NCBI GenBank assembly: GCA_016935885.1
Contig: JAFGQA010000506.1
Span: 1-24,954, forward strand
Length of the DNA: 24,954 nucleotides
Direction: 5' to 3'
Origin: Phycisphaerae bacterium
GTDB taxonomy: Bacteria > Planctomycetota > Phycisphaerae > UBA1845 > UTPLA1
In this document: positions 202 through 21,898 of the stretch, piece by piece
How positions within the stretch are numbered: the first letter of the stretch is position 1
Layout of the letters: every line of letters starts with the position of its first letter
Position numbers and translations under genes: made by a program
The notes under the pieces: model-generated
Told to the model about the DNA's origin: nothing
Databases searched by the model: none
What the model saw: the letters and a program-made list of their open reading frames with translations, nothing else

Positions 202-290
202 TGGAATGGTGGAATGTAGGAATGGTGGTGAGCCTCGCTCCTTCCTTCTTCTCCCGCGAATCATCCAATGATCGAATCATCCTCTTCTCC
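194..290 (+). repeat. Dispersed repeat B, copy 1
   Basis: A GGAATGATGGAATGG-type segment runs into GTGAGCCTCGCTCCTTCC and then an AATCATCCAATGATCGAAT-like stretch. The same order occurs at 5838-5933, and the last part recurs inverted at about 24895-24940. It is non-coding and runs over the end of the partial gene at the left edge. Confidence 0.75.
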
Positions 291-5837: not shown

Positions 5838-5933
5838 GGGAATGATGGAATGGTGGAATGTTGGAATGGTGGTGAGCCTCGCTCCTTCCTTCTTCCCTCC
5901 CCCCAATCATCGAATGATCCAATCATCGAATCA
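5838..5933 (+). repeat. Dispersed repeat B, copy 2
   Basis: Same order as 194-290: GGAATGATGGAATGG, GGTGGTGAGCCTCGCTCC, then AATCATCGAATGATCC. The most conserved part is the first 55 bases. Confidence 0.75.
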
Positions 5934-6433: not shown

Positions 6434-8290
6434 ATGAAAGACGTGGAGCACGGTCAGCTGCAGAGGAGGCCGGGGGAATGCGGTATTGACTCGCTTGCAG
6501 GAATGCTGGTGAAGGCAATGACTTATGCGCCTTCAGACCCCGAGACAGCTCTCATGCATGCCCGCAAGTCTGCCGAAGCCATCTGTTCGACTGTTTTGGC
6601 CCGGGAGATCGGAGATCCTGGGAACAATCGGCTGGACAAGCTGATCGAGCTGCTGTCGGACAAGGACAGGGTTCCCGAGCGGGTGAAGATTCCGCTTCGA
6701 GTGATACAGCAGTACGGCAACTATGGAGCCCACTTCCAGGGCGATGAGCACTCCATAACGCGGGCATACATCGACCCATGCCTCGCCGCCCTGATTCACG
6801 TTGCGAATTGGTATTTTCTCGAGTATCTCCGCATGGAAATTCCCGCCGCAGTCGCGGAAGCTAACAACGAGTTCGAGCCGCAGGCCGCCGTTCTTGCAGA
6901 ACCAGAGGTGTCGGTGGACGACCCGGACGGGTTGTCTGCGGAGCTTAAACTGCCAGCCCCTCTCAGGTCTTACCAGTGGGAGGGAGTCAGCTTCCTGGCG
7001 CGAAATACAGCCGCACTCCTAGCCGACGAGATGGGTCTCGGAAAGACGGTCCAGTCGATTGTCGCCCTACGACTACTCCTGCGGCAGTCGCCCTCGGGAA
7101 GAGTCCTTGTGATTACACCGAACGCGCTTGCGTACAACTGGGAACGGGAACTGGCGACCTGGGCGCCGGATTTGGTGGTACGACGGGTGACGGGAACTGC
7201 CGAGGACCGACTGGCAACATACCAACTTCCAATCCAGGTGCTGATTGCGACTTACGAGCAGATCCGGGCGGATGCTCTGGACATGGACCCGGATATCCAC
7301 TTTGACGTTCTTGTGTTGGACGAGGCGCAACGGATCAAGAACCGGCACTCACGAGCAGCGCTGGGGTGCCGAATGCTACGCCGAACACGGGCCTGGATAC
7401 TGACAGGGACACCCCTCGAGAACAGCGTTGAGGACTTGGTATCGCTGTTCGTGCTGCTCTCGCCCGGACTCGTGGATAGCGGGATGCCGCCGGCCGAAGT
7501 GCATCGCCGGATTCAGCCTCATTTCCTTCGCCGGAGAAAGAAGGATGTACTGGCGGAGATGCCACCTATTATCATGCAAGATATGATGTTGGAACTTGCT
7601 GGTGCCCAGGACGCCGCATACACAGATCTCTGGGTGAACCGGCGGACCAGCGCTCGCCAGGAGGGGGTCCCGGTATCTGACCTGGCCCTCTTCGCCCTAC
7701 TCACGAAGCTCAAGCAGCTCTGCAATTACGAACCGACAACCGGGGAGTCCGTGAAGTCAGAGGCTCTCGGGGTAGTCCTGGAGGAATGTACCGAGACGGA
7801 CGACAAGGTGATCGTATTCTCGCAGTATGTTGAAACACTCAAGTTCATTGCAGGCGGGCTGGGAACCTTTGCGTACGACATCTACACTGGCGAACAGTCG
7901 CAGGAAGAGAAGGACGATGTGTTGGCAAGGTTCAGGCAGTTGCCCGGTCCCCGGGCGCTGTTGATGTCGCTCCGTGCCGGCGGTGTCGGGCTCAACATCC
8001 AGGAGGCGTCCACAGTCGTGCTCTTTGATCGTTGGTGGAATCCTGCTGTTGAGAATCAGGCAATACAGCGGGCACATCGATTCGGGCGAACACGGCCGCT
8101 ACATGTCATCCGGTTTCTGGTTGCGGGCACAATCGAGGAGCGGATCGCGGAAGTGCTGAAGGACAAGGAGGCAGATTTCGAGCGCTACATCGAGGGCGCC
8201 GACAATGCGCCAGTGAAGTTGTTCACGCGCGATGAGCTGAGAAAGGTCTTGGCGTTGACGGTGGTTGACACGGATGCACAGCGGGCGTAG
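6434..8290 (+). CDS. SNF2-family helicase with N-terminal DUF4145-like domain
   Basis: This 618-residue protein begins with about 130 residues resembling DUF4145 (AMTYAPSDPETALMHARKSAEAICSTVL ... IQQYGNYGAHF), a HEPN-like helical domain found on many defence proteins. A full SNF2 ATPase follows: Walker A DEMGLGKT at 198-205, DEAQ box at 296-299, LTGTPLENS, then in the second RecA lobe LRAGGVGLNIQEAS, FDRWWNPAVENQAIQRAHRFGR and the TIEERI end. SNF2 proteins translocate on double-stranded DNA. It is the first gene of a tight run with ParB-like, HTH and metallo-beta-lactamase genes upstream of dnd. I chose the ATG at 6434 because it begins the conserved domain; 6362 is in frame but falls in the promoter. 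No strong ribosome binding site is visible. Its role here is not known to me; restriction or remodelling of modified DNA is plausible. Confidence 0.88.
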   Translation: MKDVEHGQLQRRPGECGIDSLAGMLVKAMTYAPSDPETALMHARKSAEAICSTVLAREIGDPGNNRLDKLIELLSDKDRVPERVKIPLRVIQQYGNYGAHFQGDEHSITRAYIDPCLAALIHVANWYFLEYLRMEIPAAVAEANNEFEPQAAVLAEPEVSVDDPDGLSAELKLPAPLRSYQWEGVSFLARNTAALLADEMGLGKTVQSIVALRLLLRQSPSGRVLVITPNALAYNWERELATWAPDLVVRRVTGTAEDRLATYQLPIQVLIATYEQIRADALDMDPDIHFDVLVLDEAQRIKNRHSRAALGCRMLRRTRAWILTGTPLENSVEDLVSLFVLLSPGLVDSGMPPAEVHRRIQPHFLRRRKKDVLAEMPPIIMQDMMLELAGAQDAAYTDLWVNRRTSARQEGVPVSDLALFALLTKLKQLCNYEPTTGESVKSEALGVVLEECTETDDKVIVFSQYVETLKFIAGGLGTFAYDIYTGEQSQEEKDDVLARFRQLPGPRALLMSLRAGGVGLNIQEASTVVLFDRWWNPAVENQAIQRAHRFGRTRPLHVIRFLVAGTIEERIAEVLKDKEADFERYIEGADNAPVKLFTRDELRKVLALTVVDTDAQRA

Positions 8291-8315
8291 TAAGCCCGAT
8301 CTAGGAGGAAGCAAC

Positions 8316-9143
8316 ATGAAGGCGAAGATCGTGGACGTGAAGGAAATCCCGCTAACCAGTCTGGTTATCGGCAAGGGCCAAGTTCGAGTGCGAGATGTGG
8401 GCAAGGAGATCGACGAATTGGCTGCGAGCATAGCCCAGCTCGGCCAACTTGAACCCATTGTGGTTTGCCCGTCCAAGGAGAAGGGCAAATTCGAAATATT
8501 AACCGGCCAACGCCGTTATCTCGCCCACAAACAGATTAGGAAAGATAAAATCATGGCCTGCATCCTCGACCGCGAGGTCGACGAGACAGAGGCCAAGGTG
8601 ATCTCCGTAACGGAGAACTTGGTCCGTCGCGATCTGAACAGAAAGGATCTCATCGACGCCTGCACTGCACTCTACCGGAAGTATGGGTCAATCAAGGATG
8701 TGGCCGATGAGACTGGCCTCCCCTATCCCAAAGTGGCGCTGTATGTGAAGTACGACCGCTTGGAGCCAGAACTGAAGCAGCTCGTGGATGCGAATGAGGT
8801 GGATCTGAAAGTTGCTCTGCGGGCGCAGGATGCGGCGTCTGTCTCGGGTAAGTACAACTCAAAGGAAGCTGTTGTACTGGCGAAAGAACTGGCACAGATG
8901 AGCGGCGCACAGCAGGACCGGGTTGTCAGGAAGCGCGAGGACGATCCGACTGCCGATGTCTCAGATGTCATCGAGGCGGCAAAAACGGGCGAGAAGATCA
9001 CACAGATCGTGGTCACCATCGGAACAGGACTACACCAGTCCCTGAAGCAGTATGCCAAGGATGAGGACACCTCGCTGGACGATGCGGCGTGTTCTTTGAT
9101 TGAGGAGGCCCTGTCCGGCAAGGGTTACGCAACGGGGGAGTGA
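8316..9143 (+). CDS. ParB-like protein (ParB/Srx N-domain plus HTH)
   Basis: This 275-residue protein has the ParB N-terminal domain: IDELAASIAQLGQLEPIVV at 32-50, LTGQRRYLA at 62-70 (the ParB GERR box, with Q for E) and TENLVRRDLN at 99-108. Then come a ParB-type HTH (SIKDVADETGLPYPKVALYVKY) and a Lys/Asp-rich C-terminal part ending in a ribbon-helix-helix-like stretch (HQSLKQYAKDEDTSLDDAACSLIEEAL). ParB-fold proteins bind CTP and slide on DNA, and some relatives are nucleases. The ATG at 8316 has AGGAGGAAG upstream, 25 bp after the helicase stop. It is likely co-transcribed with its neighbours. Its location in a defence cluster argues against a role in chromosome partition. Confidence 0.85.
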   Translation: MKAKIVDVKEIPLTSLVIGKGQVRVRDVGKEIDELAASIAQLGQLEPIVVCPSKEKGKFEILTGQRRYLAHKQIRKDKIMACILDREVDETEAKVISVTENLVRRDLNRKDLIDACTALYRKYGSIKDVADETGLPYPKVALYVKYDRLEPELKQLVDANEVDLKVALRAQDAASVSGKYNSKEAVVLAKELAQMSGAQQDRVVRKREDDPTADVSDVIEAAKTGEKITQIVVTIGTGLHQSLKQYAKDEDTSLDDAACSLIEEALSGKGYATGE

Positions 9144-9856
9144 TGATGCTCCCCGGTCTGACTTCAGAAGAGGCACGCGATCTGCTGCTCTCCGTGGGTA
9201 CTCATCACGGGAAACGCAGGCTGTCTCCTGTTGAAGTTGCCCGGCTTTTCGGCAAGGCCATAGCGTCCGGCGCGACGCCGATGACCTGCGCGCGCTTCGT
9301 GAACCTTACTGGACCTGCGATGATTCCGAGATTCCTCCGCCTTCTCCGGCTCAGTTCCACAATCCAACACCTCGTGGACTGGGGACAAACTGGCTCGACA
9401 TTGGCATTCGCATCGGCGTGGCGCCTCGGCAACCTCAATGAGGACGAGCAGGAGACGGTGGCGAGAGAAGCCATCGCGAATCAGATGGGGAAGGAAGAGG
9501 TGCGCCAGGTCATTCAGCTGAGGAAGCGCTCAAAACGTGGAGTTGAGAAGTGCATCGCAGAAGTCTTACGAATGCGCTCTGTTGTTGATCGGCGTCATGT
9601 GTTCCTGGGCGCCATCACAGACGAGAAAGTCAGGCGGTCCCTCGCTAAGCTCAAACAGAATGATCGGGATGGGCTTATTGCAGCTTCCATGGAGAGCTCG
9701 TATGGCCCCATGCTTAACACGTCTGGCCGGTTGGGGATTGAGCGCTTCACAATCGTAACCGATCAGAATGGCGCGGCGCGGCTCAGAGGTCCGGGCGGTT
9801 CTGATTTCGAGGTGGTCATTAACCGACAACTCGCGGCGAGGGTGGTCAAGGCATGA
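9143..9856 (+). CDS. ParB central-domain (HTH)-like protein lacking the ParB N-domain
   Basis: This protein of about 237 residues has no match I can name outright. Residues 25-120 follow the layout of the ParB/KorB central domain: LSPVEVARLFGKAIASGATPM, then an HTH-like stretch ending in PRFLRLLRLSSTIQHLVDWG, an LAFASAWRLGNL stretch (compare the usual LSFGHARAL) and EREAIANQMGKEEVRQVIQL. No GERR or ENxxR box is present. The start overlaps the ParB-like gene's stop (TGATG), with GGGGGAG just upstream; ATG 9143 or 9146 are equally possible. Its end overlaps the next gene by 4 bp. I infer a DNA-binding or adaptor protein acting with the ParB-like neighbour; the function is unproven. Confidence 0.6.
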   Translation: MMLPGLTSEEARDLLLSVGTHHGKRRLSPVEVARLFGKAIASGATPMTCARFVNLTGPAMIPRFLRLLRLSSTIQHLVDWGQTGSTLAFASAWRLGNLNEDEQETVAREAIANQMGKEEVRQVIQLRKRSKRGVEKCIAEVLRMRSVVDRRHVFLGAITDEKVRRSLAKLKQNDRDGLIAASMESSYGPMLNTSGRLGIERFTIVTDQNGAARLRGPGGSDFEVVINRQLAARVVKA

Positions 9857-10887
9857 ACGATGGAGAGATAGGGGTGACGGCCTCCGGGGTGATTTTGCTG
9901 GGCCCGGACGTGACGTGCGACGGATTCCATCGAGACTACGGCGTCCGTGTTCAGACGCACGTGCACGTGGATCACATGAGCAATTTCGAGACCAGTAAGG
10001 GGCTGCAGGACATCTTCATGAGCGAGGCAACGCTGAAACTCTTGATAGCCGAGTTCAACGCAGACCTTCCTGCGCGCACGGAAACCAACATTGTTGTGCT
10101 TCCTTTCGAACAGTCGCAGCTTGCAGGATCCTCCCACGTGATGCTCCTCCCTTCGGGCCACATGCTTGGTTCTGTGCAAGTATCCGTGGAACTCCAAGAT
10201 GGTCGCCGCGTGGGGTATTCCGGGGACTTCCAGTGGCCGCTCAGTGCAACTATCCAGGTCGACGACTTGGTGCTGGATAGCACATATGGTTCTGAGGAAA
10301 GCGTGCGGCATTACTCACAGGAGGAAGTCGAGCAACAGCTTCTTTGTATAGCGGTCGAGAAACTCAGGCGGGGACCCCTGCACGTCAAGGCTCACCGCGG
10401 CACGGTCCATCGTGGCCTTCAAGTGCTATCGGAGATCTCCGGCTGTGCCTTTCTTGCGAGCCCACGCATGTGCAGGGAAATCGATGTGTACAGGGAGTTC
10501 GGCTGTCCGATTGGCCCCGTTGTGTGCATGAGGTCACCAGAAGCAGTGGGGGCTGTCCAGTCCGGTCGGTTCATTCGCTTTTATGGCACCGGTGACCAAT
10601 TTCCCGTTCAAGTGACTCACGGCACAACCTTGGTTCTGAGCGCATTCAGAACGAACCCTGACAGCCCCGTACTTGAGTACTCTGATCGGGCTCTGAGTAT
10701 CGCTCTCAGCGATCATGCGGATTTTGACGGCACACTGGAGTATATCAAGGCAACCGGGGCGGAGTACGTCGTCACAGACAACTCGCGGGGCGGGCATGCC
10801 GTGGAGCTCGCGAGAGCGATCACCAGACGGCTCGGCATCAGAGCTGAACCGTCGAAATCCGAATCGTCACACGAATGGGGGACGTAA
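9853..10887 (+). CDS. Metallo-beta-lactamase-fold (beta-CASP-like) nuclease
   Basis: This 344-residue protein has the metal ligands of MBL-fold nucleases: THVHVDH with H36, H38, D40 and H41; LPSGHMLGS with H103; YSGDF with D125; the DSTYG box at 142-146 typical of beta-CASP and COG1236-type enzymes; and LSDHADF with H288 near the end. Relatives include CPSF73/SNM1-like nucleases and the exonuclease encoded beside ATP-dependent DNA ligase and Lhr-type helicase in some bacteria. It should be an intracellular DNA or RNA nuclease; there is no signal peptide. ATG 9853 overlaps the previous stop (ATGA), so it is coupled to the HTH gene. Within this cluster it is the best candidate for the cutting enzyme. 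Confidence 0.87.
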   Translation: MNDGEIGVTASGVILLGPDVTCDGFHRDYGVRVQTHVHVDHMSNFETSKGLQDIFMSEATLKLLIAEFNADLPARTETNIVVLPFEQSQLAGSSHVMLLPSGHMLGSVQVSVELQDGRRVGYSGDFQWPLSATIQVDDLVLDSTYGSEESVRHYSQEEVEQQLLCIAVEKLRRGPLHVKAHRGTVHRGLQVLSEISGCAFLASPRMCREIDVYREFGCPIGPVVCMRSPEAVGAVQSGRFIRFYGTGDQFPVQVTHGTTLVLSAFRTNPDSPVLEYSDRALSIALSDHADFDGTLEYIKATGAEYVVTDNSRGGHAVELARAITRRLGIRAEPSKSESSHEWGT

Positions 10888-10988
10888 AAGACGGCGCTCG
10901 GACAGAACTTCCGGTCAGCGACTACTACAAGGATCAGATCCTCGGCGCGGAGACGATCTCGCTGGTGGACACCTGTCCTACTAGTTAG
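10875..10988 (+). pseudogene. Short truncated frame after the MBL gene
   Basis: A 37-residue frame (MGDVKDGARTELPVSDYYKD and onward to a TAG at 10986-10988) begins inside the end of the MBL gene, in the overlapping style of this operon. Its start looks like a genuine N-terminus, and then it stops abruptly near TGGACACCTGTCCTA. I suspect the first codons of a fifth operon gene cut off by an insertion or deletion, but the family is not recognisable. The following 10989-11203 has no gene of normal length. Confidence 0.35.
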
Positions 10989-11203
10989 GGATCCTCAGAC
11001 ACAGAAGCCTTTCGTTGCGCTCTGCCGATGGCAGATGACTGAAGCCGGATAGAAGACACGCAAGAACTTCAAATTCAGCAATCGGAAGGCTGTTCAGGCA
11101 TTCACCGAGATTACTCTGCGTTTCTCGTCCCAACTTGAGGAATAGCGGAGGACAACGGAGATGCTGCGGTGGGATAACCACCGATACTGAGCGGGAACGG
11201 GCA

Positions 11204-12325
11204 ATGGACCTTCGGGGGATTCGAAACTGTTACACGCTCACACCTATGAGGGTGTCCCCTGGAGATTTGCTGCTGGACCCTAACAATCCTCGACTGATCT
11301 CCAGCTCCTTCGAGGAGGGGAGGTATACGCCAGCGAGGATCGCCAGTTCTGAAGTTCAGAATCAGATCTACAACAAGATCAGCAAGTCCGAGTACCATAT
11401 TCAGAAGCTCATCCGTAGCATTGGTGAAAGTGGCTTCCTTCCCGGTCTGGGAGACATGATTGTCCAGTCAGTGAATCGAACCGAAAAGTACCTGGTGATC
11501 GAGGGGAATCGCAGACTAACCGCTATCCGTTTTCTCCTGCTAGACGGCGCACGCCTCGACCCGAAGATCTTGAACTCCATCAAGAAACTCGATGTGAAGC
11601 TCTTTGCGTATGACCCGTCGAGCTCGCTGTCAGAGGAGGAGGTCAAGGATCGTCTGCTTGGCATGATCCACATACAGGGACCGGAAGCCTGGGGCGCAAT
11701 GGAGAAGGCGCATTTCATCTCCAAGAGCTACGAGCGGGAGTACCGACGGCGATTTCCAAGATCGGAACCAACGTACAAGGCGGCAGTCGCTCGGGAAGTG
11801 GCGAAACTCTATAGCGACTCCCTGGGCAAGATATGGCGTCATCTCGCGGTGTACAGAGTCTTTGAGCAGCTCAAGGCGGGTCACTACGAAGTTCGAGCCG
11901 ACCACTACTCCTTGTTGGACATGGTGCTGTCCAAGAGAGATCTGCGGCGAAGCTACTTTGGTTTCGATGAGGGTGTTCTTCAGTTCTCGAAGCAGGGGCT
12001 TTCGCGCTTCAACCGGCTCTGTGCGGAGTCCAAATGCCCTGTGCACGACCCGCAGCGGTTTAGGCATTTTCACTTCGTCTTCGTTCATGGTACTGAACAG
12101 GACCTCAGGGACATTGAGACGAAGAGATTCCTTGTGCAGGATGTTAGGGAGAAGGTGGAAGCCCGCGCGTGCAAGAAGCAATTCACCGACTCGCTCCAAA
12201 GTGTTGCGGGACTGCTGAAGGATCTCGACATCAAAGACTACCAGGGATACGCGAAGGAGGACCTGCTCATACAGAGGATCTGCAGACTGGTCGAAAAGAA
12301 ACTGAAGCGGATCTTCAAGGGGTAG
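11204..12325 (+). CDS. Second ParB-like domain protein
   Basis: This 373-residue protein starts with a ParB/Srx-like domain: LLLDPNNPRL at 22-31, a helix IQKLIRSIGESGFLP, then YLVIEGNRRLTAIRFLL at 96-112, where EGNRR replaces GERR. The rest (about 250 residues) is Arg/Lys/Glu-rich and helical (EYRRRFPRSEPTYKAAVARE, HYSLLDMVLSKRDLR), and I recognise no further domain. The ATG at 11204 lies at the start of the homologous region, with AGCGGGAACGGG upstream; the longer frame from 11135 is less likely. It stands alone, 316 bp after the MBL gene and 165 bp before dndB. Similar stand-alone ParB-domain proteins occur beside DNA-modification systems, but its role here is inferred from position only. 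Confidence 0.72.
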   Translation: MDLRGIRNCYTLTPMRVSPGDLLLDPNNPRLISSSFEEGRYTPARIASSEVQNQIYNKISKSEYHIQKLIRSIGESGFLPGLGDMIVQSVNRTEKYLVIEGNRRLTAIRFLLLDGARLDPKILNSIKKLDVKLFAYDPSSSLSEEEVKDRLLGMIHIQGPEAWGAMEKAHFISKSYEREYRRRFPRSEPTYKAAVAREVAKLYSDSLGKIWRHLAVYRVFEQLKAGHYEVRADHYSLLDMVLSKRDLRRSYFGFDEGVLQFSKQGLSRFNRLCAESKCPVHDPQRFRHFHFVFVHGTEQDLRDIETKRFLVQDVREKVEARACKKQFTDSLQSVAGLLKDLDIKDYQGYAKEDLLIQRICRLVEKKLKRIFKG

Positions 12326-12420
12326 TCGGCAGAAAAGACGGACAATGACTCCATTTCGGTCGCAGCGACGACCGGCTTGTCGGTCTAGCAGAACGTCGCG
12401 CGACTGTCGTGCTCAAGAAC

Positions 12421-12465
12421 TGGAAGTATCTTGAGACTATCTGGAAGTTTACCTGTTGACTTCCA
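12421..12465 (+). promoter_or_regulatory. TGGAAGT repeat array, candidate DndB operator
   Basis: TGGAAGT occurs at 12421-12427 and 12442-12448, exactly 21 bp apart (two helical turns), and its inverse ACTTCCA at 12459-12465. The last two form a perfect inverted repeat with a 10-base spacer that covers the -35 box of the predicted dndB promoter. DndB homologues have been reported to repress their own dnd operons, so autoregulation is the natural reading. Confidence 0.5.
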
Positions 12466-12483
12466 TCGCTGCTTGGCTATCCT
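12456..12483 (+). promoter_or_regulatory. Predicted promoter of the dndBCDEA operon
   Basis: TTGACT (12456-12461), 16 bp, TATCCT (12478-12483), with the dndB ATG at 12491. Transcription would begin almost at the start codon, which fits the lack of a ribosome binding site there (leaderless mRNA). Confidence 0.5.
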
Positions 12484-12490
12484 CACAATC

Positions 12491-13600
12491 ATGAAGCTCG
12501 CCGAGGCACAGGATTTTGCATATTCATTTCCCGCCATCCGTGGCGTCCAGGCTGGGCGCGAGTTCTATGTGACCATGTGCCCCATGGAGTATGTGCCGCG
12601 CCTTTTCAACGTGCCCGACACCGACCTTCTACCGGAACTTCGCGCTCAGCGGGCGCTGAACAAGAGCCGGATTCCAGCCATCGCCCGCTACATTCTGGAC
12701 AATCCCAAGTCATACGTCTTCTCGTCCTTGACCGCCTCAATTGATGGTAGTGTTGTTTTCTCGCCTTCGGGCGAGGATCAGGTCAGCCGCAAGCTGGGGA
12801 CACTCTGCGTTCCGATGAACGCGAGGATACTGATCAACGATGGCCAACACCGCCGCGCCGCGATTCTCCGAGCCTTGGAGGAGAATCCGGCGCTCAGGTA
12901 TGACGCCATCTCGATTGTGTTCTTTGTAGATTCAGGACTTGCGCGCAGCCAGCAGATGTTCGCGGACCTGAACCGCTATGCGATTCGCCCAACCAAGTCG
13001 CTGGGTATTCTCTACGACCATCGAGATCCAATGGCACACCTGGCACATGAAGTGTCGCACGAAGTTCCCGTCTTTCGTGACATGACCGAGAAGGCCAGAA
13101 GTACAATCTCTAACCGGTCCAGGAAGCTCTTCACGCTGAGCAGCATCTACCAAGCGACACGGAGGCTTCTGAACAAGAAAGATGGCGAGCCGGTGACGCC
13201 CAAGGACAAGGCGTTGGCTGTCGCATTTTGGGCGGAGGTGTCTCGTCAGATCCCAGATTGGCAGGCCGCGGCAGACCGCAAGCTTTCACCTAGCGAACTC
13301 CGCGCCGACTGCGTACATGCGCATGGGGTCGCCCTGCAAGCGCTGGCAATCGCTGGTACTGCGCTGATTGCAGAACAGCCACGACAGTGGCAGAGGAAGC
13401 TGACTCGGTTGCGGAAGATCGATTGGTCGCGGAGCAATGCCGCGCTGTGGGAAGGGCGGGCGCTTATTGGGGGCCGCCTCAACAAGGCCCAGAACAATGT
13501 GATTCTCACCGCAAATGTCATCAAGCGGCAGCTCGGGCTTCGGTTGTCGCCGAGCGAGGAGAAAGTTGAGCACCTCTATGGTAAAGCGGGCAGAGCATAG
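12491..13600 (+). CDS. dndB: DndB-like DNA sulfur modification regulator (DGQHR family)
   Basis: This 369-residue protein has the DndB/DGQHR signature INDGQHRRAAI at 115-125, an upstream block with ARYILDNPKSYVFSSLTASI (about 65-84), and QQMFADLNRYAIRPTKSL after it. DndB is not needed for sulfur insertion itself; it affects the frequency and pattern of phosphorothioate sites and acts as a repressor of dnd genes in some hosts. I use the ATG at 12491, which begins the conserved region; the frame extends to 12431, but that part covers the predicted promoter. Its end overlaps dndC by 23 bp. It is the first gene of a compact plus-strand run dndB-C-D-E-A. Confidence 0.9.
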   Translation: MKLAEAQDFAYSFPAIRGVQAGREFYVTMCPMEYVPRLFNVPDTDLLPELRAQRALNKSRIPAIARYILDNPKSYVFSSLTASIDGSVVFSPSGEDQVSRKLGTLCVPMNARILINDGQHRRAAILRALEENPALRYDAISIVFFVDSGLARSQQMFADLNRYAIRPTKSLGILYDHRDPMAHLAHEVSHEVPVFRDMTEKARSTISNRSRKLFTLSSIYQATRRLLNKKDGEPVTPKDKALAVAFWAEVSRQIPDWQAAADRKLSPSELRADCVHAHGVALQALAIAGTALIAEQPRQWQRKLTRLRKIDWSRSNAALWEGRALIGGRLNKAQNNVILTANVIKRQLGLRLSPSEEKVEHLYGKAGRA

Positions 13601-15068
13601 AAGCGATGTTGTGAGGCCGAACCACCCCGCGCTGACGCGGGAGTCTCTGGATGCCTGCCTTGAACTGATCCGCCAGCAGTATCTTTCGGATGGTCAGCCC
13701 TGGGTCATCGGCTACAGCGGCGGCAAGGACTCCACCTGCGTACTGCAGCTGGCGTGGTGTGCCTTGGCAGAGTTGCCATCCCCGAAGCTGACCAAACCGG
13801 TCTATGTGATCACGTCAGACACTTTTGTGGAGAGTCCTGCGGTAGAGCGGCACCTTGCCGCCTCGCTCGATTTGATCAATGCTGGCAGCAGAAAGGCCGG
13901 GCTGCCAATTGTGGCTCATGTAGTTGGGCCAACCGTGGATGATTCATTCTGGGTCAACCTCATTGGGCGCGGGTACCCGGCGCCGTACAGCAGTTTCCGA
14001 TGGTGTACGGATCGGATGAAGATTGCGCCGGCTACGGCTTTCATTCGCAGCAAGGTGGCCGAACATGGGGAGGTTACCATATTGCTGGGGGCCAGGAAGG
14101 CTGAGAGCGCAACACGCGCACAAGTAATGAAGCATCGCAAAACGCGCGGTTCTCAGTCGAGGGTCTTCAAACACAGCTCCCTGCCGAATGCGTGGGTCTT
14201 CACGCCGATAGAGGAGTGGTCTACTCAGGATGTCTGGACCTACCTCACGAGCACACCGTGCCCTTGGGGCGGGAACAACAGTGACCTCGTGACCATGTAC
14301 CGCAACGCCCAGGCTGGCGAATGCCCGCTGGTAATCGACAAGTCAACACCGGCATGTGGCGGCGGGCGCTTTGGTTGTTGGGTGTGCACCGTTGTGGATC
14401 GAGATCGCACGATGGAAGCCATGATCGACAACGGCGAGACTTGGCTCCAACCCATGTTGGATTTTCGCAATTGGCTTGCCGCCACAGGTGACGAGAACAC
14501 GGACAAGAGCGCAATCCGGGACTTCAGACGGAGAACAGGAAAAATCCAATTCTTCATCGATGCAGACCGTAAGAGGCAATTGATCCATGGGCCCTTCAAG
14601 TTGGCCTTTCGTGGGCAGATCCTGAAGCGGCTTCTCGACGCGCAGGTGAAGATGCGGAGGATGGGAGCCGACCCCACACCTAAGCTGATCCGTGATGAGG
14701 AGCTGCATCGGATCAGACAGATCTGGCTGCATGAGGAGGGGGATTGGGGAGATTCGCTGCCGGTCATCTATGAGCAGACTATGGGCGAGCGGTTAGAGTG
14801 GCTTAATGACGATTGGTCGGGGATGGGGGGCGCTGAGAAGAAGGTCCTGGAGGAGATTAGCCGGGAATATGGTGTGCCGGATGGCTTGCTTGTCGAACTC
14901 ATGGACAAGGAACGGGAGTTCCACGGCATGAGTCGAAGGGCAGGCGTGTGCGCGGAACTCAGGCGAATTCTGAAGAAGGACTGGAGATCACTGGAGGAGG
15001 CGTGGGCAGGCCAAGAGGTCGCCAGCAAGGACGCACAGGTGGTCGCGGAGGAGCCCAGTGCGCATTAA
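13578..15068 (+). CDS. dndC: DndC, PAPS-reductase-like DNA sulfur transferase
   Basis: This 496-residue protein has the ATP pyrophosphatase P-loop GYSGGKDST at 45-53, as in PAPS reductases and DndC. Cysteines C228, C249, C260, C267 and C270 (CPW, GECP, ACGGG, GCWVC) are suitable for the Fe-S cluster known in this family. An SSFRWCTDRMKI motif lies between. DndC with DndD and DndE activates the DNA backbone and inserts sulfur supplied by DndA. The C-terminal third (charged, helical) is typical of DndC rather than plain PAPS reductase. The ATG at 13578 lies inside the end of dndB; AGGAG occurs further upstream than usual. It overlaps dndD by 11 bp. Confidence 0.95.
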   Translation: MVKRAEHRSDVVRPNHPALTRESLDACLELIRQQYLSDGQPWVIGYSGGKDSTCVLQLAWCALAELPSPKLTKPVYVITSDTFVESPAVERHLAASLDLINAGSRKAGLPIVAHVVGPTVDDSFWVNLIGRGYPAPYSSFRWCTDRMKIAPATAFIRSKVAEHGEVTILLGARKAESATRAQVMKHRKTRGSQSRVFKHSSLPNAWVFTPIEEWSTQDVWTYLTSTPCPWGGNNSDLVTMYRNAQAGECPLVIDKSTPACGGGRFGCWVCTVVDRDRTMEAMIDNGETWLQPMLDFRNWLAATGDENTDKSAIRDFRRRTGKIQFFIDADRKRQLIHGPFKLAFRGQILKRLLDAQVKMRRMGADPTPKLIRDEELHRIRQIWLHEEGDWGDSLPVIYEQTMGERLEWLNDDWSGMGGAEKKVLEEISREYGVPDGLLVELMDKEREFHGMSRRAGVCAELRRILKKDWRSLEEAWAGQEVASKDAQVVAEEPSAH

Positions 15069-17118
15069 TCGTGTAGTCTTGGAGAACTACGGACTGTACT
15101 CGGGTCGGAACGAGCTTGAACTTGCACCACGGTCCAAAGGTGAGTTGTCGCGGCCAATCATTCTGATCGGAGGGATGAATGGTGCGGGCAAAACAACACT
15201 CCTGGACGCTGTGCGGTTGGCACTCTATGGGAAAAGCGCAGTCGGTGACCGGATAAGCGAGAAACGATACCAAGAACACCTGCGGGGTCTTGTGCACCGA
15301 TCGCGGAGTTCTCTGGTGCAATTCGACTTTGCGCGCGTGGGCGTGGACTTCGATCTCGTGTTCAGAGGGACCCGCGAGACCTACTACGTACAACGGTCCT
15401 GGAGCCTGCGGACCGGGGGCAGCGTTGAGGAGAGCCTGCAGGTCTGCAAACATGACGCCGCGTCGCGTAACGGGGACTACAGCACATGGCCGAGCTTGCC
15501 CGATCTAGAACCCGAGCACTGGCAAGCGTTCGTCAGCGATGTTGTGCCAGAACGGCTCTCGCAGCTCTTCTTCTTTGACGGGGAGAAGATAAAGAGCATT
15601 GCAGATGACATCTCGGGAGACAGGGCGATAGCCGGCTCCATACGGTCTCTGCTCGGGCTAGACATCGTCGTTCGGTTGAAGGCTGACCTGACGATCTTGG
15701 CAGCGCGTGAGACAGAAGACCATCTGGATAGGGCCGAGGCTAGCGCCCTCGATCGGGTACTTGCGGAGATCGAGGCGCTGGATGTAGCGGTCGCCACGGA
15801 GGAGCAGAACCGGGCAGAGATCGAGACGGAGATTCGAGGCGCTGAGGGGGAGATCAAGAGGCTCGAACGGCAGCTCCAGGAGCAAGGCGGCGCGTTCGCG
15901 CAGGAGCGACCGCTGAAGCAGGAGCGGCGAAGAGCGCTCGAGGGCGAAATCCAAGACCTACAGCGTAGGATTCGCCTGGAAAGCGAGGGCTTGTTTCCCT
16001 TGGGGCTTTGTCCGGGCGTCGCAAAGGCTCTCGAGAAGCAGATTGACAGTGAAAGTCGGGTTCGGCGGCGGGCGGCTGTGCAAGGGGAGATCCAGGACCT
16101 GCAGGGGAAAATCATCCGGAAGCTCTCAAGAGCCGTCAACCTGCCAGACCCAAGAGGCCGGCGGGAAGCTGTTCAGATCGTGCGGGAGACGGTGGCTGCG
16201 CAGTTGGGGCATGATGAAAGAAGAAGCGCCCGCAACGGCGTGCAGCTTGGTCTTTCGAAGTCAGATGAGGGGCAGATACTCGCCTGGCTCCACGAAGCGC
16301 GCTCGGCTGCCGCGGCTACAGTTCGGCGGCTCTGCCGGGAGATCGAGGCGAAAGAGAGAGAAGCCCAGGAGATCGAACGCCAGCTCAGTCGAGCACCTGA
16401 CCAGATGGTCCTGGCGCCTGTATTCGCTGATCTGAGCGTGCAGAATCAGTTATTGGGGCAGAAACGCGCGGAGTTGAAGGCCCTCGACGAGAGGATAGCC
16501 TCCGCTCGAAATGAGATGGCGGCGAAGGAACGTGAGAGAGAACGACTGATGGCACGAGGCAAGGAGAAGGCTGACGTGCGGAGTCGGCTTGAAGTAGTCG
16601 GGAAAGTGCAGGGCGCCTTGAATCGGTATCTGGCGAGGCTGACAGAGATCAAAGTAGGGGCGCTGTGCCGTGCGGTGACAGAATGCTTCAATCGCCTGTC
16701 GCGGAAAGGGGACCTGCTGCACGGTATCTCAATCGACCCGCAGACGTTCGAGGTGAGACTGCACGGCGCGGAGGGGTATACGATTCCCCGCGGGGAACTG
16801 TCGGCCGGAGAGAAACAGATCCTAGCGATTTCCATCCTGTGGGGGTTGGCTAGGACTTCAGGGCGCCCCCTGCCGGTCATCATTGACACTCCGCTCGGGA
16901 GACTCGACAGCGCCCACAGGATGAACTTGGTGCAGAACTACTTCCCGCATGCCGGGCACCAAGTGGTTCTTCTCTCAACGGATACCGAGGTGGACAGGCA
17001 CTTGTTTGAGGAGATGAAGCCACACATCTCACACTGCTATCACCTGGTGTACGACAAGCAAGAACGGCGGACGTGCGCACGGCAGGAGTATTTCTGGAAG
17101 GAGCACATTCATGCGTGA
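15058..17118 (+). CDS. dndD: DndD, SMC-like ATPase of DNA phosphorothioation
   Basis: This 686-residue SMC/Rad50-like ATPase has Walker A GGMNGAGKTT at 38-47, the ABC signature LSAGEKQ at 581-587 and Walker B VIIDTP at 607-612. Between them are long Glu/Arg-rich coiled coils (roughly 205-310 and 390-530). The FFDGEKI motif around residue 170 is characteristic of DndD and related DNA-modification ATPases. DndD is thought to use ATP to alter DNA structure for sulfur insertion by DndC. It starts with GTG at 15058, with GGAGGAG upstream, inside the end of dndC. Its stop overlaps the dndE start by 8 bp, so the genes are translationally coupled. Confidence 0.95.
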   Translation: MRINRVVLENYGLYSGRNELELAPRSKGELSRPIILIGGMNGAGKTTLLDAVRLALYGKSAVGDRISEKRYQEHLRGLVHRSRSSLVQFDFARVGVDFDLVFRGTRETYYVQRSWSLRTGGSVEESLQVCKHDAASRNGDYSTWPSLPDLEPEHWQAFVSDVVPERLSQLFFFDGEKIKSIADDISGDRAIAGSIRSLLGLDIVVRLKADLTILAARETEDHLDRAEASALDRVLAEIEALDVAVATEEQNRAEIETEIRGAEGEIKRLERQLQEQGGAFAQERPLKQERRRALEGEIQDLQRRIRLESEGLFPLGLCPGVAKALEKQIDSESRVRRRAAVQGEIQDLQGKIIRKLSRAVNLPDPRGRREAVQIVRETVAAQLGHDERRSARNGVQLGLSKSDEGQILAWLHEARSAAAATVRRLCREIEAKEREAQEIERQLSRAPDQMVLAPVFADLSVQNQLLGQKRAELKALDERIASARNEMAAKERERERLMARGKEKADVRSRLEVVGKVQGALNRYLARLTEIKVGALCRAVTECFNRLSRKGDLLHGISIDPQTFEVRLHGAEGYTIPRGELSAGEKQILAISILWGLARTSGRPLPVIIDTPLGRLDSAHRMNLVQNYFPHAGHQVVLLSTDTEVDRHLFEEMKPHISHCYHLVYDKQERRTCARQEYFWKEHIHA

Positions 17119-17527
17119 GCTAGCCCTTCGGAAGATCCCGTTCACCGCAGAATCAGACAACCGGCTGCGAACGCTCAAGGCACGGACGGGACTCGACCGA
17201 AATTACATATGTCGAATGGGATTCTGTCTATCGCTCGAGGAACCAGGAGTACCGACCGCGTCGACAGAGAAAGCGGTGGGGGCTAGGGAAATCGACCGCT
17301 ACACCCTGCTTGGGCAACATGCGCGAGCATATGAGGCGCTTATGCTGGCGTGGATGAACGAGAATAAGGTCAAACCGTCCTCTGCAGGCGGCATCGATGG
17401 GATGTTCGTTGCTCACATGAATCGTGGTGTGGAGATCATGGTCGCGCGCGTTCGCAGTCTGGCGGACCTGGCAGGACTTTTGCCGAAGCAGCGTAATCGG
17501 CGGTCTGGCCTAAGACGGCGAAAGTGA
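17111..17527 (+). CDS. dndE: DndE DNA sulfur modification protein
   Basis: This 138-residue basic protein matches DndE: an N-terminal FTAESDNRLRTLKARTGLDRNYICRMGFCLSLEE pattern, a DRYTLLGQHARAYEALMLAW helix, and HMNRGVEIMVARVRSLADL near the end. Known DndE binds nicked double-stranded DNA and forms part of the sulfur-inserting complex with DndC and DndD. The C-terminal RNRRSGLRRRK tail is very basic. The ATG at 17111 lies inside the end of dndD. It is followed after 9 bp by dndA. Confidence 0.92.
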   Translation: MRELALRKIPFTAESDNRLRTLKARTGLDRNYICRMGFCLSLEEPGVPTASTEKAVGAREIDRYTLLGQHARAYEALMLAWMNENKVKPSSAGGIDGMFVAHMNRGVEIMVARVRSLADLAGLLPKQRNRRSGLRRRK

Positions 17528-17536
17528 GAGGGCATC

Positions 17537-18712
17537 ATGCCCGAAGAGCTGAGATTGCCAGTCTATCTGGACTACCAAGCCACAACGCCGGTGGATCCGC
17601 GCGTGCTCGAGGCCATGACGCCCTACTTCAGCCGGGTCTTCGGCAATGCGGCTTCTAAGAATCACGCCTTCGGTCGGGACGCCCATCGGGCTGTGGAGAC
17701 AGCACGCGAGACTATTGGCGCAGGTCTTCACGCCAAGCCACAGGACATCTGTTTCACCTCCGGAGCGACCGAGGCGATTAACCTGGCCATCAAAGGTGTC
17801 TTCTACGCCCATCGGGACAAGAAGCCTCATTTTGTCACAGTAGTAACTGAACATAAGGCTGTGCTCGATTCCATGAAGCGGATCGAATCTGAAGGGGCGC
17901 AGGTCACGTATCTACGGGCGGATGCGAAGGGGATGCTCGATCCTGCTGCGGTTGCTCAGGCGATCCGCGCCGAGACTATCCTCGTGAGCGTCATGGCCGC
18001 GAACAACGAGATTGGCGTCATCCAGCCGCTCGGCGAGATCGGGAGAGTCTGCCGGGAGCGCGACGTGTTCTTCATGACCGACGCGACGCAGGCGTTCGGC
18101 AAGATCCCGATCGACGTGGAGAAGATGAACATCGACCTCTTGACTTGCTCTGCACACAAGATGTATGGCCCTAAGGGGATCGGAGCGTTGTACTGCCGCA
18201 GAAGCCTGCCGCGCGTGTCCGTGCAGCCGATCATCGATGGCGGAGGTCATGAGCGTGGACTGAGATCGGGCACGCTAAATGTGCCGGGGATAGTTGGGTT
18301 CGCCAAGGCCGTGGAGATCTCGCTTCGCCAGATGAAGGCCGAACAGAGCAGGCTGCGCAGGATGCGTGACAAGTTGTATGAGGAGCTTCATGAGAAACTT
18401 GGCAACATCAAGCTGAACGGTCATCGGGAGCAGCGGCTGGCGGGCAATCTCAACATATGCGTCCCCGGCGTGGCCAGTGAGGCGCTGATTATCGCGCTCT
18501 CGAATGACGTAGCGATCTCCTCCGGCTCCGCCTGCACGACTGCCGCTGTAGTGCCATCGCATGTACTGAAGGCCCTGGGGATGAGTGATGCGAATGTTCA
18601 CTCGTCCATAAGGATTGGGCTCGGGCGGCCGACGACGGAGGCAGAAGTTGATTACGCAGCGAAGCTGGTCGCAGAGGAAGCGATCCGGATACGTGGGTTA
18701 AGGCAGGCGTAA
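17537..18712 (+). CDS. dndA: DndA/IscS-type cysteine desulfurase
   Basis: This 391-residue PLP-dependent class V aminotransferase begins with YLDYQATTPVDPRV, has the PLP lysine in SAHKMYGPKG (K208) and the active cysteine in SSGSACTT (C333). It removes sulfur from cysteine and, in Dnd systems, delivers it to DndC and helps assemble its Fe-S cluster. The ATG at 17537 is preceded by GAGAGGG. In many dnd loci dndA is divergent from dndBCDE or replaced by a housekeeping IscS; here it is the last gene of the operon. The NMSxEGVLLxA-like middle of IscS cannot be checked by eye, so IscS versus DndA rests on context. Confidence 0.93.
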   Translation: MPEELRLPVYLDYQATTPVDPRVLEAMTPYFSRVFGNAASKNHAFGRDAHRAVETARETIGAGLHAKPQDICFTSGATEAINLAIKGVFYAHRDKKPHFVTVVTEHKAVLDSMKRIESEGAQVTYLRADAKGMLDPAAVAQAIRAETILVSVMAANNEIGVIQPLGEIGRVCRERDVFFMTDATQAFGKIPIDVEKMNIDLLTCSAHKMYGPKGIGALYCRRSLPRVSVQPIIDGGGHERGLRSGTLNVPGIVGFAKAVEISLRQMKAEQSRLRRMRDKLYEELHEKLGNIKLNGHREQRLAGNLNICVPGVASEALIIALSNDVAISSGSACTTAAVVPSHVLKALGMSDANVHSSIRIGLGRPTTEAEVDYAAKLVAEEAIRIRGLRQA

Positions 18713-19096: not shown

Positions 19097-19741
19097 TCAG
19101 CAAGCGAAGTCGAATGGATGGGTTGGCGCTTGTGCTTTCACGAGCCACGCTGATTTGCTCTGAGACCATCTCCATGTCGCGAGGGCGGCGGCACATGCCG
19201 CGACCGCATGGTCTGAATCCGCCACGTGGCCCGGTATGCCTTTGACCTGCTGCGTGCTCAGCCACTGGAGCAATTTCTCGCGGCATGAATGCTTTCTGCG
19301 CATGTCTCTGATGTCTGCTACTGGAGCACCGTGCAGCACCATCGCGGCGCTTGGATGCACCTCGACAATTAAGATCGTGGCTGGAAGATATGACAAGGCA
19401 CGCGTCAGAGATATCCCGCGCAAGGTCAGATAAGCCATGCGTGTCATGGTGGGCGCCATGACTGTCCCTGAGCGCAGTCCGGCTTGAATGACCCGCTTCC
19501 TGAGCTCAGTGTCGGCCGGCCGGTCCCCACCGCCGGGATTATATGAAAGAGGTGCGTCAAGTCCGACTAGGACGCAAGCATGCTTGGCCATGTTGCTCAC
19601 GCAGTCGATGATCGCTCTGTCACTGGCCTGTTCAACCAGGTTCTCGAAGATAATGCATTCGGTCTTGTCCTGAAAAACGACTGCGCAGGTGTCCGTCTTA
19701 TTCGCCGGCCCAGAAAGGTCTATGCCGACGATTTTGTTCAC
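19097..19741 (-). CDS. DUF429-family protein (RNase H-like fold)
   Basis: This 214-residue protein opens with VGIDLSGPANKTDTCAVVF, has VLVGLDAPLSYNPGGGDRPADTELRKR in the middle, then ILIVEVHPSAAMVLHG, and ends with ADSDHAVAACAAALATW. This arrangement of Asp/Glu-bearing blocks is that of DUF429, predicted RNase H-like nucleases of unknown function. The start is GTG at 19741, overlapping the stop of the HNH gene (GTGA), with AAGGATAAG upstream; the two are one operon. Pairing with an SRA-HNH-type gene beside a DNA-modification cluster suggests a nucleic-acid processing role, but activity is unproven. Confidence 0.8.
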   Translation of the reverse strand: MNKIVGIDLSGPANKTDTCAVVFQDKTECIIFENLVEQASDRAIIDCVSNMAKHACVLVGLDAPLSYNPGGGDRPADTELRKRVIQAGLRSGTVMAPTMTRMAYLTLRGISLTRALSYLPATILIVEVHPSAAMVLHGAPVADIRDMRRKHSCREKLLQWLSTQQVKGIPGHVADSDHAVAACAAALATWRWSQSKSAWLVKAQAPTHPFDFAC

Positions 19742-20442
19742 TCGATCTTATCCTTCTTCTCTAGATTGTGCCTGGCACACAGAAGCTGGATGTTCTCTGC
19801 CTTCAGCGATGTCCCGCCCTTGGAAAATGGCAGGATGTGGTCGAAGTGCAGGTTGTCCCTGCTTCCGCAGATGACGCATTTCCCGCCGTCGCGTTTGTAG
19901 ACCTCTAACATTATGCGCGAGGGGATCACGCGGTTGTGAGGCAAGTCGCTCCTGGGATGCGCACGCTTTCGGCCAGTTGTGGCACGTTGCTCGGTCAGTT
20001 CGAGGCGGAATTTGAAGACCTTTCTTCCTCCGCTGTCCTCCTGCCACGCGTCGACAAGCTTGAACATGCCGTTGTACACCCAGATCCCGGACTTGATCTT
20101 CTCGTAGACCTTCACCAGGTCGGCTTCGGCACCATGATCTTTGTGCATCTTCGCCGCTTTGTGGAACTTGCCGTTCTCAGTCAGAGAGCCGCCAGGATTG
20201 AACATCGGTTGGTCCGCGTTCTTGGGATACGGTCCACCGGGTTGCCTCGGAATGTCGTGCCCTTCGTAGATCAGGGTCTTGCCATCGTCTTCAACGCGAT
20301 CGGCATACGGGGCGTTCTTCCGAAGGCTCATCAGGATGATGCTGGGCCCGCCATGCAATCGGAAATTCATGCCGCGCTGCAGATTGACTCCCTCCTCGCT
20401 GCACATTTCGAGGTAGTGGATGATCTGGCCGGGGGTGAACAT
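19738..20442 (-). CDS. HNH endonuclease with N-terminal SRA/YDG-like domain
   Basis: This 234-residue protein has two parts. Residues about 20-150 (GVNLQRGMNFRLHGG, YADRVEDDGKTLIYEGHD, KVYEKIKSGIWVYNGMFKLVDAW, KVFKFRLEL) look like the SRA/YDG fold, which reads modified bases by base flipping. Residues about 178-230 form an HNH nuclease: CVIC at 189-192, FDH at 200-202, KGG, and LLCARHN with C222 and H225. SRA-HNH proteins are typically modification-dependent (type IV) restriction enzymes. The ATG at 20442 begins the conserved part; the in-frame extension to 20643 translates repeat-like sequence. No ribosome binding site is obvious. It overlaps the DUF429 gene by 4 bp. The modification recognised cannot be read from sequence. 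Confidence 0.8.
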   Translation of the reverse strand: MFTPGQIIHYLEMCSEEGVNLQRGMNFRLHGGPSIILMSLRKNAPYADRVEDDGKTLIYEGHDIPRQPGGPYPKNADQPMFNPGGSLTENGKFHKAAKMHKDHGAEADLVKVYEKIKSGIWVYNGMFKLVDAWQEDSGGRKVFKFRLELTEQRATTGRKRAHPRSDLPHNRVIPSRIMLEVYKRDGGKCVICGSRDNLHFDHILPFSKGGTSLKAENIQLLCARHNLEKKDKIE

Positions 20443-20572
20443 GGGGGTGAAATTGGAAACGTGAAACTGGAAACTGGAGTGCTCCGCGTCCTGTTTCTGC
20501 CTTCTCCGTGCCCTCTGTGGTGCGTCTCTTCTTTTGCGTCTTTTGCGTTTTTTCGCGGTTACTCTTCCGCCG

Positions 20573-20803
20573 TCATTCCTCTCCGAGTAACCACCCCGTT
20601 GAGACAGCGAGGACCTTGGCGAGAGCCTTGACTTCAAAGTCATAGACTCGCCGCATGCCGTTCTCGATTTTCGAGATGCCGGCGCGGTCGATCTGGATGC
20701 CGAGGCGAGCGAGGCGGGCGGAGACTTGGTCTTGAGAGAGGGGAGTGTACTTGGTGCGAGCCAGGCGGACGCGGGAGCCGACTATGTTCTTCACTTTGGC
20801 CAT
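20573..20803 (-). CDS. Small XRE-family transcriptional regulator
   Basis: This 76-residue protein is almost entirely one XRE helix-turn-helix: VGSRVRLARTKYTPLSQDQVSARLARLGIQIDRAGISKIENG followed by VKALAKVLAVSTGWLLGEE. The ATG at 20803 is the only sensible start; the ribosome binding site is weak. It lies 130 bp upstream of the HNH gene on the same strand, separated by a T-rich CTTTTGCGTCTTTTGCG-type repeat, so it may be a separate gene or the controller of that operon. Similar small XRE proteins act as C-proteins in restriction systems; that role is inferred. GAACAGG inverted repeats lie upstream. Confidence 0.8.
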   Translation of the reverse strand: MAKVKNIVGSRVRLARTKYTPLSQDQVSARLARLGIQIDRAGISKIENGMRRVYDFEVKALAKVLAVSTGWLLGEE

Positions 20804-21163: not shown

Positions 21164-21898
21164 ATGGTCAGGCATGAGATAGTGCTGGGTTGGCTCGCTT
21201 TGCTCCTGGGCATGGCTGCGGGGGCGCGGGCGGACGTGCGCGTCTGGACGTCTGTATCAGGCGCGAAGGTCACGGCGGAGTTCGTCGAGAAGCAGGGCGA
21301 CTTCGTCGTGCTCAGGGGCGAGAACGGCAAGGACCTCAAGATCGGCCTGGAGAAGCTGAGCGAGGCGGACCGCAGTTTCGTCCGGGAACTGCTCGGCGAG
21401 GTTGAGCCCACACCCGAGGCCGCGGAGCATCCGGTCGGCCGGATCATCAAGGATGTCGCCTGCGAGGAAGAGCCGGAGTGGTCCTACCTGCTGTACCTGC
21501 CGCGCGCATACAAGCCGGACCGCAAGTGGCCGGTGCTCTACATCCTCGGGCCGATGGGCGGGTCGGAATACGACGTCCAGCGCTACGTGAAGGGGGCGGA
21601 ACTGAACGGCTGGATCCTGGCCATGTCCACCCAGCGCCGGAACAATTTCGACCGCTCGGGCGAGGCGGTGCGCGCGATGGACCATCACGTGCATGGCAGT
21701 CGCGGGGTCGGACCACAGGTTTCCTTAGAGCACCAACAACTTACGACGACGAAAACGGCAGATTCGACCCCTTACAGCCGCTTTTCGGGCCCCGAAATCG
21801 CTTCTAAGGACTCTCTCGGCAGTGTCTTTGGCATCGCCGTGGCCTGGCGGGGGGACCCACGAAGCACAAGCAACACATATCTCGCAGGCAGCTCTTGA
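21164..21898 (+). pseudogene. Truncated secreted SHD1-domain / esterase-like protein
   Basis: The frame begins with a signal peptide (MVRHEIVLGWLALLLGMAAGARA) and an SHD1 (SLA1-homology) domain, VWTSVSGAKVTAEFVEKQGDFVVLRGENGKDLKIGLEKLSEAD, common in secreted proteins of Planctomycetes and Verrucomicrobia. Next comes the start of an alpha/beta-hydrolase-like part (YLLYLPRAYKPDRKWPVLYILG, then GWILAMSTQRRNNFDRSGEAV). About residue 180 the coding pattern ends where repeat F begins (21704), and the remaining residues only translate the repeat. The catalytic serine region of an esterase is therefore missing and the gene is probably dead. The stop at 21896-21898 lies in the promoter of the next operon. 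Confidence 0.72.
21704..21810 (+). repeat. Repeat F, right copy
   Basis: GGGGTCGGACCACAGG ... AGAGCACCAACAACTTACG ... CCCCTTACAGCCGCTTTTCGG ... AAATCGCTTCTAAGGA. Inverted relative to 6222-6329. It truncates the SHD1 gene and marks the right edge of the region containing dnd and the SRA-HNH genes. Confidence 0.7.

Follow-up and report, generated by a model that had tools for sequence, protein, structure and literature searches.

Which genes restrict DNA where a phosphorothioation (PT) cluster lacks dndFGH? The question is raised by a 24,954-nucleotide stretch from a Phycisphaerae bacterium (GenBank assembly GCA_016935885.1, contig JAFGQA010000506.1, positions 1 to 24,954, forward strand; hereafter the window, meaning the whole stretch analysed), which carries dndB-C-D-E-A. 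From the letters alone, an original prediction had picked out four tightly packed genes directly upstream, for an SNF2 ATPase, a ParB-like protein, a ParB-HTH-like protein and a metallo-beta-lactamase (MBL) of the beta-CASP kind, and had proposed them as an effector coupled to sulfur modification. We found that SNF2-ParB-HTH-MBL (hereafter the module) is a conserved gene block, tied to three PT machineries and exchanged with SBD-HNH and Pbe genes in Poribacteria. We regard it as probably a transferable effector (restriction) unit of PT systems. The ten window genes concerned are all open and intact and run in one direction (scores in bits):

6434..8290, + strand: SNF2-family ATPase with an N-terminal DUF4145, putative DNA translocase (PF00176 147.6, cut-off 24.9; PF00271 75.8; PF13643 28.3, cut-off 23.1)
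8316..9143, + strand: ParB-family protein with an N-terminal CTPase-type domain and an HTH, putative CTP-dependent DNA clamp (ParB_N 51.5, cut-off 26.3)
9146..9856, + strand: ParB-HTH-like adaptor without a CTPase domain, with a small C-terminal alpha/beta domain
9853..10887, + strand: putative MBL/beta-CASP nuclease
11204..12325, + strand: second ParB/Srx-like gene, accessory, outside the recurring module (PADLOC PDC-M38A 63.8, PD-Lambda-5_A 35)
12491..13600, + strand: dndB (TIGR03233 492.1, cut-off 328)
13578..15068, + strand: dndC, PT sulfurtransferase with a C-terminal Sp-DndD domain (TIGR03183 544, cut-off 290.4; PF20306 27.4, cut-off 27.2)
15058..17118, + strand: dndD, ABC ATPase (TIGR03185 519.4, cut-off 245.85)
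17111..17527, + strand: dndE (TIGR03184 72.7, cut-off 71.85; PF08870 70.8)
17537..18712, + strand: dndA/iscS-type cysteine desulfurase (TIGR03235 428.5 of 480; TIGR02006 499.2 of 643.2; PADLOC DndA 538)

The predicted dnd genes were all present. DndB, DndC, DndD and DndE each exceeded their curated NCBIfam cut-offs and their overlapping genes form a single operon; the cysteine desulfurase reached neither the DndA nor the IscS cut-off. The module lay upstream on the same strand where it had been predicted, its ParB, HTH and MBL genes nearly touching or overlapping, as dndB-C-D-E-A do, with the second ParB-like gene set apart. The claim that dndFGH are missing from the window also held: no dndF, dndG or dndH model was among the PADLOC matches listed for 20 window proteins (the best 25 families for SNF2 and DndD) or in the NCBIfam scan of 11 window proteins, and the four module proteins had no such match in NCBIfam and none among the PADLOC matches listed (for SNF2, the best 25 of 43 families). 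The SNF2, DUF4145 and ParB_N domains exceeded their Pfam cut-offs; HTH_ParB (21.4 bits, cut-off 22.6) and Lactamase_B_2 (21.5 bits, cut-off 27) fell below theirs, so the HTH and MBL assignments were taken from predicted folds. PADLOC returned no match for the module HTH and MBL proteins and two weak ones for its ParB (19 and 16.6 bits, type II enzymes). The SNF2 protein was rejected as Zorya ZorD (136.9 of 1500 bits), DISARM DrmD (83.1 of 950) or DpdE (80.3 of 500), the similarity being that of the helicase domain only. TIGR04095 was absent from its 11 NCBIfam matches, and Pfam matched no DUF262 fused to a DUF1524 HNH domain in the window module.

Recurrence of the block was assessed with a profile built from 19 MBL relatives and scanned against one genome per species in 84,980 species. 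The scan matched 112 stretches and yielded 84 relatives, the best 80 of which were kept, representing 78 distinct loci (numbered with L below). Of these 78, 44 had HTH and ParB genes ahead of MBL in the same orientation, 35 of them with SNF2 as well. The median gap was 3 bases between ParB and HTH and -17 between HTH and MBL (overlap of the longest open frames); in L023, 3.9 kb separated HTH from MBL. The 44 loci span 11 named phyla, so the block is more than a chance arrangement; its core is ParB-HTH-MBL, and SNF2 is the usual motor, missing in some loci. The other 34 MBL loci, 26 from archaea and 8 from bacteria and 24-44% identical across the matched portion, had no ParB-HTH partner. Of 48 HTH homologues in a protein database with contigs of at least 5 kb, the window's included, 20 lay on contigs exactly size-matched to that of one of the best 120 of 1134 MBL homologues. 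The second ParB-like gene, which the original prediction had counted in the set, was rejected as a member: it was the best match of no open reading frame in the 78 loci, and it had 101 homologues among the matches listed.

The HTH profile matched 106 of 392 Planctomycetota genomes at E 0.001, at full strength (265 bits) only in the genome of L001; the next score was 64.5 bits, and the weaker matches are presumed to be mostly ordinary ParB proteins. Viral contigs scanned with the MBL alignment gave 17 pattern matches and no relative, and plasmid records scanned for MBL and HTH gave no match. In Mycobacterium sp. MFM001, the position of SNF2 ahead of ParB-HTH-MBL is occupied by an SMC/RecN-like ATPase (L011:6159-8606). 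An MBL remnant lies between dndD/dndE pieces and SBD-HNH in L076:8636-12689, apparently a decayed module. A related archaeal MBL-beta-CASP group (L045-L068, L070; about 27-32% identity) had no ParB or HTH partner and no DndC or SspD found nearby.

Flanks of up to 10 kb on each side, often less, were then compared. DndC or SspD was found in the flanks of 38 of the 44 module loci and of 0 of the 34 other MBL loci (L076, with its dndD/dndE pieces, among the latter), which supports the proposed coupling to sulfur modification and shows that homologues of the block do not usually stand apart from such genes. For comparison, dndC exceeded its cut-off anywhere in the genome in 8 of 369 Gammaproteobacteria, the seed genome included. 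The 38 comprised 24 loci with DndC, no DndD or DndE, and a DndI/SspE-like DUF262-DUF1524 (HNH) gene; 9 with DndCDE; and 5 with Ssp genes. The DUF262-DUF1524 order was scanned in one gene, that of L017, and is the order of SspE and DndI in the sections of PMC11662687 covered. The Ssp calls were based on SspC (1043.7 bits) and SspD (361.2 bits) in L003, on DUF4007 (258.8 bits) in L039 and on phmmer for the rest, L041 being counted by an SspD-like gene alone; L003 and L039 have SspA-B-C-D sets beside the module. Among the six loci without a counted DndC or SspD, L004 adjoins a PT-associated methyltransferase gene (TIGR04096, 528.7 bits), L025 has an adjacent dndA on a contig that begins 0.5 kb upstream of SNF2, and L069 has a weak SspD-like gene (31.4 bits) plus dndA, so these three carry a PT-linked or possibly PT-linked gene. 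Contigs end nearby in L022, L034 and L043, the last with a GmrSD_N gene (121.6 bits). The best ParB-HTH-MBL tree required at least four context switches among the three machineries, with the long branches L041, L043, L038 and L011 placed unsurely; it thus appears that the module has passed from one machinery to another. The AbiE genes on both sides of the window cluster would fit an unrelated defence system that simply occupies the same islands as PT genes. Such a system is hard to reconcile with the 38 of 44 linkage, the three machineries and the alternation with PT-restriction genes described below, and we judge it very improbable.

The 24 loci with DndC and no adjoining DndD or DndE raise another explanation, namely that the module works on the modification side, by targeting, opening or maintaining sites of sulfur insertion or by repairing damage at PT sites. 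DndD exceeded its cut-off in 2 of 23 searched genomes of this type, the other 21 having none over it, and DNA targeting could come from ParB, HTH and SNF2. However, the module also stands beside DndCDE and the SspA-B-C-D sets of L003 and L039, and both machineries modify DNA without it. The short DndC with its DUF262-HNH gene also occurs without the module in the stretches read of L105 and L129, so the module is no required part of that pair. The short DndC had no solved relative at E 0.001. A further arrangement centred on DndC, again with no module, is seen in L105, L127 and L128, where the short form adjoins a PbeC/DndD-like ATPase and a gene for 508-528 aa; that gene is HerA/DndH-like in L105, the one scanned.

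Poribacteria offered a natural experiment, in which the module trades places with PT-restriction genes. Among 84 genomes, the HTH profile matched 6 (236-256 bits) and dndC was found in 27; all 6 were within the 27 and on the same contigs (P = 7e-4). The neighbourhoods of all 27 dndC loci were read. L105 is of the short DndC type, with a PbeC-like ATPase by PADLOC, and the other 26 are full-length. Under an inclusion rule blind to outcome (8 kb or more read on the dndE, or effector, side), 23 of the 26 qualified, and each had exactly one effector type: the module in 6, SBD-HNH in 8 and Pbe restriction genes in 9 (P = 6e-8 for so clean a three-way split, margins fixed and kinship ignored). The three excluded loci had about 1 kb on the effector side; L118 and L125 show SBD-HNH there and L119 nothing. 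On the best dndC tree the effector label changed at least 11 times, with 6 changes for the module against the rest, and over the 27 loci it clustered no more than in shuffles. The module converges with dndE in four loci and is co-directional in two. SBD-HNH was called by phmmer with the L001 gene, and of the 10, 8 were scanned; all 8 scored 131-142 bits against NF045808 ('phosphorothioated DNA-binding restriction endonuclease'), short of the 180-bit cut-off. Pbe genes were called by phmmer with those of L126 (PbeC alone in L108); PADLOC, run on L126 and L117, scored PbeA at about 820 bits in both, and L126 also reached 567 bits with TIGR04095 ('DNA phosphorothioation system restriction enzyme'; cut-off 600). 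With one effector per locus and repeated label changes, the module looks interchangeable with PT-restriction genes in Poribacteria. Its alternation partners are restriction and not modification genes, a further point against a role on the modification side, which we consider unlikely.

The module proteins retain the MBL metal ligands, the ParB nucleotide-binding motifs and the SNF2 Walker motifs. Walker A (G-L-G-K-T) is kept in 35 of 36 SNF2 rows, the remaining row being gapped, and the best solved chain by sequence is 1z63, an snf2/rad54-family helicase. The predicted DUF4145-SNF2 fusion stood for the window, and as a feature of the module it did not: 221 residues precede Walker A in the window protein versus at most 163 (L016) in the other rows, so that an N-terminal extension of DUF4145 length occurs only in the window's SNF2 among the aligned rows. 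The module ParB scored 73.6 bits with TIGR00180 (cut-off 58.45) and could be aligned with Noc/Spo0J. It has the ParB N domain and the G-x-R-R and E-N-L-x-R motifs of ParB/Noc clamps, with G-Q-R-R in 44-45 of 45 rows and E-N-L-x-R in 41-44 of 45. The original prediction had read the set as a translocase, two clamps and a nuclease; as the HTH protein has no ParB CTPase domain, the module holds one candidate clamp, not two. In the MBL protein, predicted to adopt the MBL-beta-CASP fold, the metal ligands are invariant (45 of 45 rows), and it scored below the curated family cut-offs it was compared with (TIGR04122, 49.4 of 325). It has no His 20-22 residues after H288, a residue which we take to mark RNA-cutting beta-CASP members; T308 is kept in 42 and D309 in 44 of 45 rows.

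Several observations weigh against a transferable restriction unit. Nine of the 44 module loci lack SNF2, with two of the nine truncated by the contig start. The module is rare among dndC genomes, present in 6 of 27 in Poribacteria; among the 8 Gammaproteobacteria with dndC, the seed carries it, and it was found in 0 of the 7 non-seed dndC loci, read over 7-19.5 kb. Resolution of the Poribacteria dndC tree is weak: 10 of its 26 inner branches are well supported, and these by themselves require the module to change state at least 4 times. The dndC-side flank markers give only partial evidence for a shared chromosomal site. Any of four markers was present in 3 of the 6 module loci as against 14 of the 19 others; for the stricter pair, F357 or F751, the counts were 2 and 10. 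L106:3063-4928 holds a lone module-type ParB (296 bits) beside SBD-HNH with no HTH or MBL, possibly a half-completed effector exchange. In fold searches with the MBL protein, the RNA enzymes CPSF, Integrator and RNase J ranked above the DNA enzymes Artemis and SNM1A. Finally, other nuclease genes coexist with the module: DUF262-HNH in 24 loci, SBD-HNH in L001, L010 and L038, and in the window the following gene, of a wHTH-SRA-HNH kind already known beside dnd genes in 698 taxa (sections of PMC10853773 covered):

19738..20643, - strand: SRA-HNH protein, second candidate nuclease (PF01844 31.2 bits, cut-off 21.4; PF02182 29.0, cut-off 30.7)

Other nucleases may therefore act beside the module, which could be a second arm or one of several. 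The proposal that it stands in place of DndFGH is accordingly narrowed to Poribacteria, where it looks interchangeable with PT-restriction genes; elsewhere it coexists with other PT-linked nucleases. TIGR03237 was found in 0 of 43 module genomes (that of L010 left out), which lends weak support only, as many are incomplete metagenome-assembled genomes and DndF and DndG were not searched there; the profile itself is functional, with 1286.6 bits in one of 299 Pseudomonadota genomes. Such coexistence would also suit a back-up or suicide effector, possibly an RNase, firing when the main PT system fails, beside a true restriction enzyme of the DndI/SspE-like, SBD-HNH or SRA-HNH kind. The largely RNA-directed relatives of the beta-CASP fold agree with this, and some dnd-linked nucleases are viewed as back-ups in the sections of PMC10853773 covered. 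However, the module is the only effector seen on its side in the 6 Poribacteria loci, ParB and SNF2 point to DNA, and the presumed RNA-cutting His is missing; we think a back-up role quite improbable.

How a restriction unit of this kind might operate can be outlined. ParB would act as a nucleotide-gated clamp loaded on DNA, with the HTH protein bridging it to the MBL nuclease and reading DNA, and SNF2 would move along or remodel DNA. PT marks on self DNA would stop, unload or fail to trigger the complex, and the MBL-beta-CASP nuclease would degrade unmarked (phage) DNA. We infer restriction itself from the linkage and exchange described above. More tentatively, and with somewhat less than even confidence, we suggest that the ParB sliding clamp acts as the restriction-modification sensor of self and non-self: PT would control its loading or spreading, the clamp would drive MBL on unmarked DNA through the HTH adaptor and SNF2, and one effector would fit DndCDE, Ssp and DndC-only machineries because it reads the mark itself. 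Allowing up to 3 mismatches, no parS consensus site occurs in the window. Two inverted-repeat pairs (10+ bases, within 60 bases) lie upstream of the module, and none of that kind lies in the gaps between MBL and the second ParB-like gene or between the latter and dndB. Tandem repeats of 8 bases of the GGAATG type occur at window 195-228 and 5839-5931, one of the two sites being upstream of the module.

The module was compared with known systems. Like DndFGH, the restriction partner of DndABCDE, it is multi-gene and presumably DNA-bound, with an ATPase and a putative nuclease, whereas DndFGH has HerA/FtsK and REase domains (PMC10853773, sections covered) in contrast to SNF2, ParB and MBL. With SspE and DndI it shares PT coupling and a ParB-superfamily nucleotide-binding domain joined to nuclease function; these are single DUF262-HNH proteins (PMC11662687, sections covered), whereas in the module the HTH-bearing ParB and the MBL nuclease are distinct proteins. 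In Poribacteria, PbeABCD (TIGR04095) takes up the same flank of the dnd genes and has the helicase-like PbeA, but PbeC is an ABC ATPase, PbeA a restriction enzyme, and no module gene was seen in those 9 loci. SBD-HNH and SRA-HNH (the ScoMcrA kind) are PT-linked nucleases, SBD-HNH on the same side in Poribacteria, but single HNH proteins without motor, clamp or MBL. CTP-dependent ParB/Noc clamps share the ParB N domain, HTH and most motif residues; the module ParB differs in belonging to a nuclease operon and in the lack of a parS match. SNM1/Artemis, CPSF73/archaeal CPSF and TIGR04122 share the MBL-beta-CASP fold and metal ligands, but the module MBL forms its own PT-linked group.

The original prediction knew of no named system with this gene set, and our search of open-licence PMC literature, supplements outside it, found no description of SNF2-ParB-HTH-MBL. 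The sections of PMC10853773 covered name HKD, HNH, REase, URI, HEPN and PIN nucleases near Dnd modification genes and no MBL; 'MBL', 'metallo' and 'lactamase' are absent from its main text, as are 'MBL' and 'lactamase' from that of PMC12839542. The covered sections of PMC12839542, PMC3710099 and PMC8569181 do not describe the module. It is a real and recurrent PT-linked effector module and, provisionally, undescribed as far as searched. Of 3416 taxa that carry a nuclease next to the modification genes, 806 have DndFGH (PMC10853773, sections covered). Many dnd clusters are without dndFGH, and the module would provide a defined four-gene candidate for their restriction, working with three PT machineries. 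Confirmation would make it the first case, in that literature, of PT restriction by an MBL-beta-CASP nuclease and of a ParB-clamp-type effector in such a system.

Further features were noted in the window. The SRA-HNH gene, downstream of dndA and convergent with the dnd genes, overlaps a DUF429 gene (PADLOC PDC-S44, 38 bits), the two forming a candidate PT-linked nuclease unit at 19097-20643 (- strand) that the original prediction had not mentioned; the SRA-HNH protein showed no significant similarity to the SBD-HNH protein of L107. An AbiEi/AbiEii pair lies left of the cluster (387-1768, - strand) and another AbiEii right of it (23785-24615, + strand; 335 bits), which places the cluster within a defence island. 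An SHD1-domain protein, of a kind common in Planctomycetota, is encoded at 21164-21898 (+ strand).

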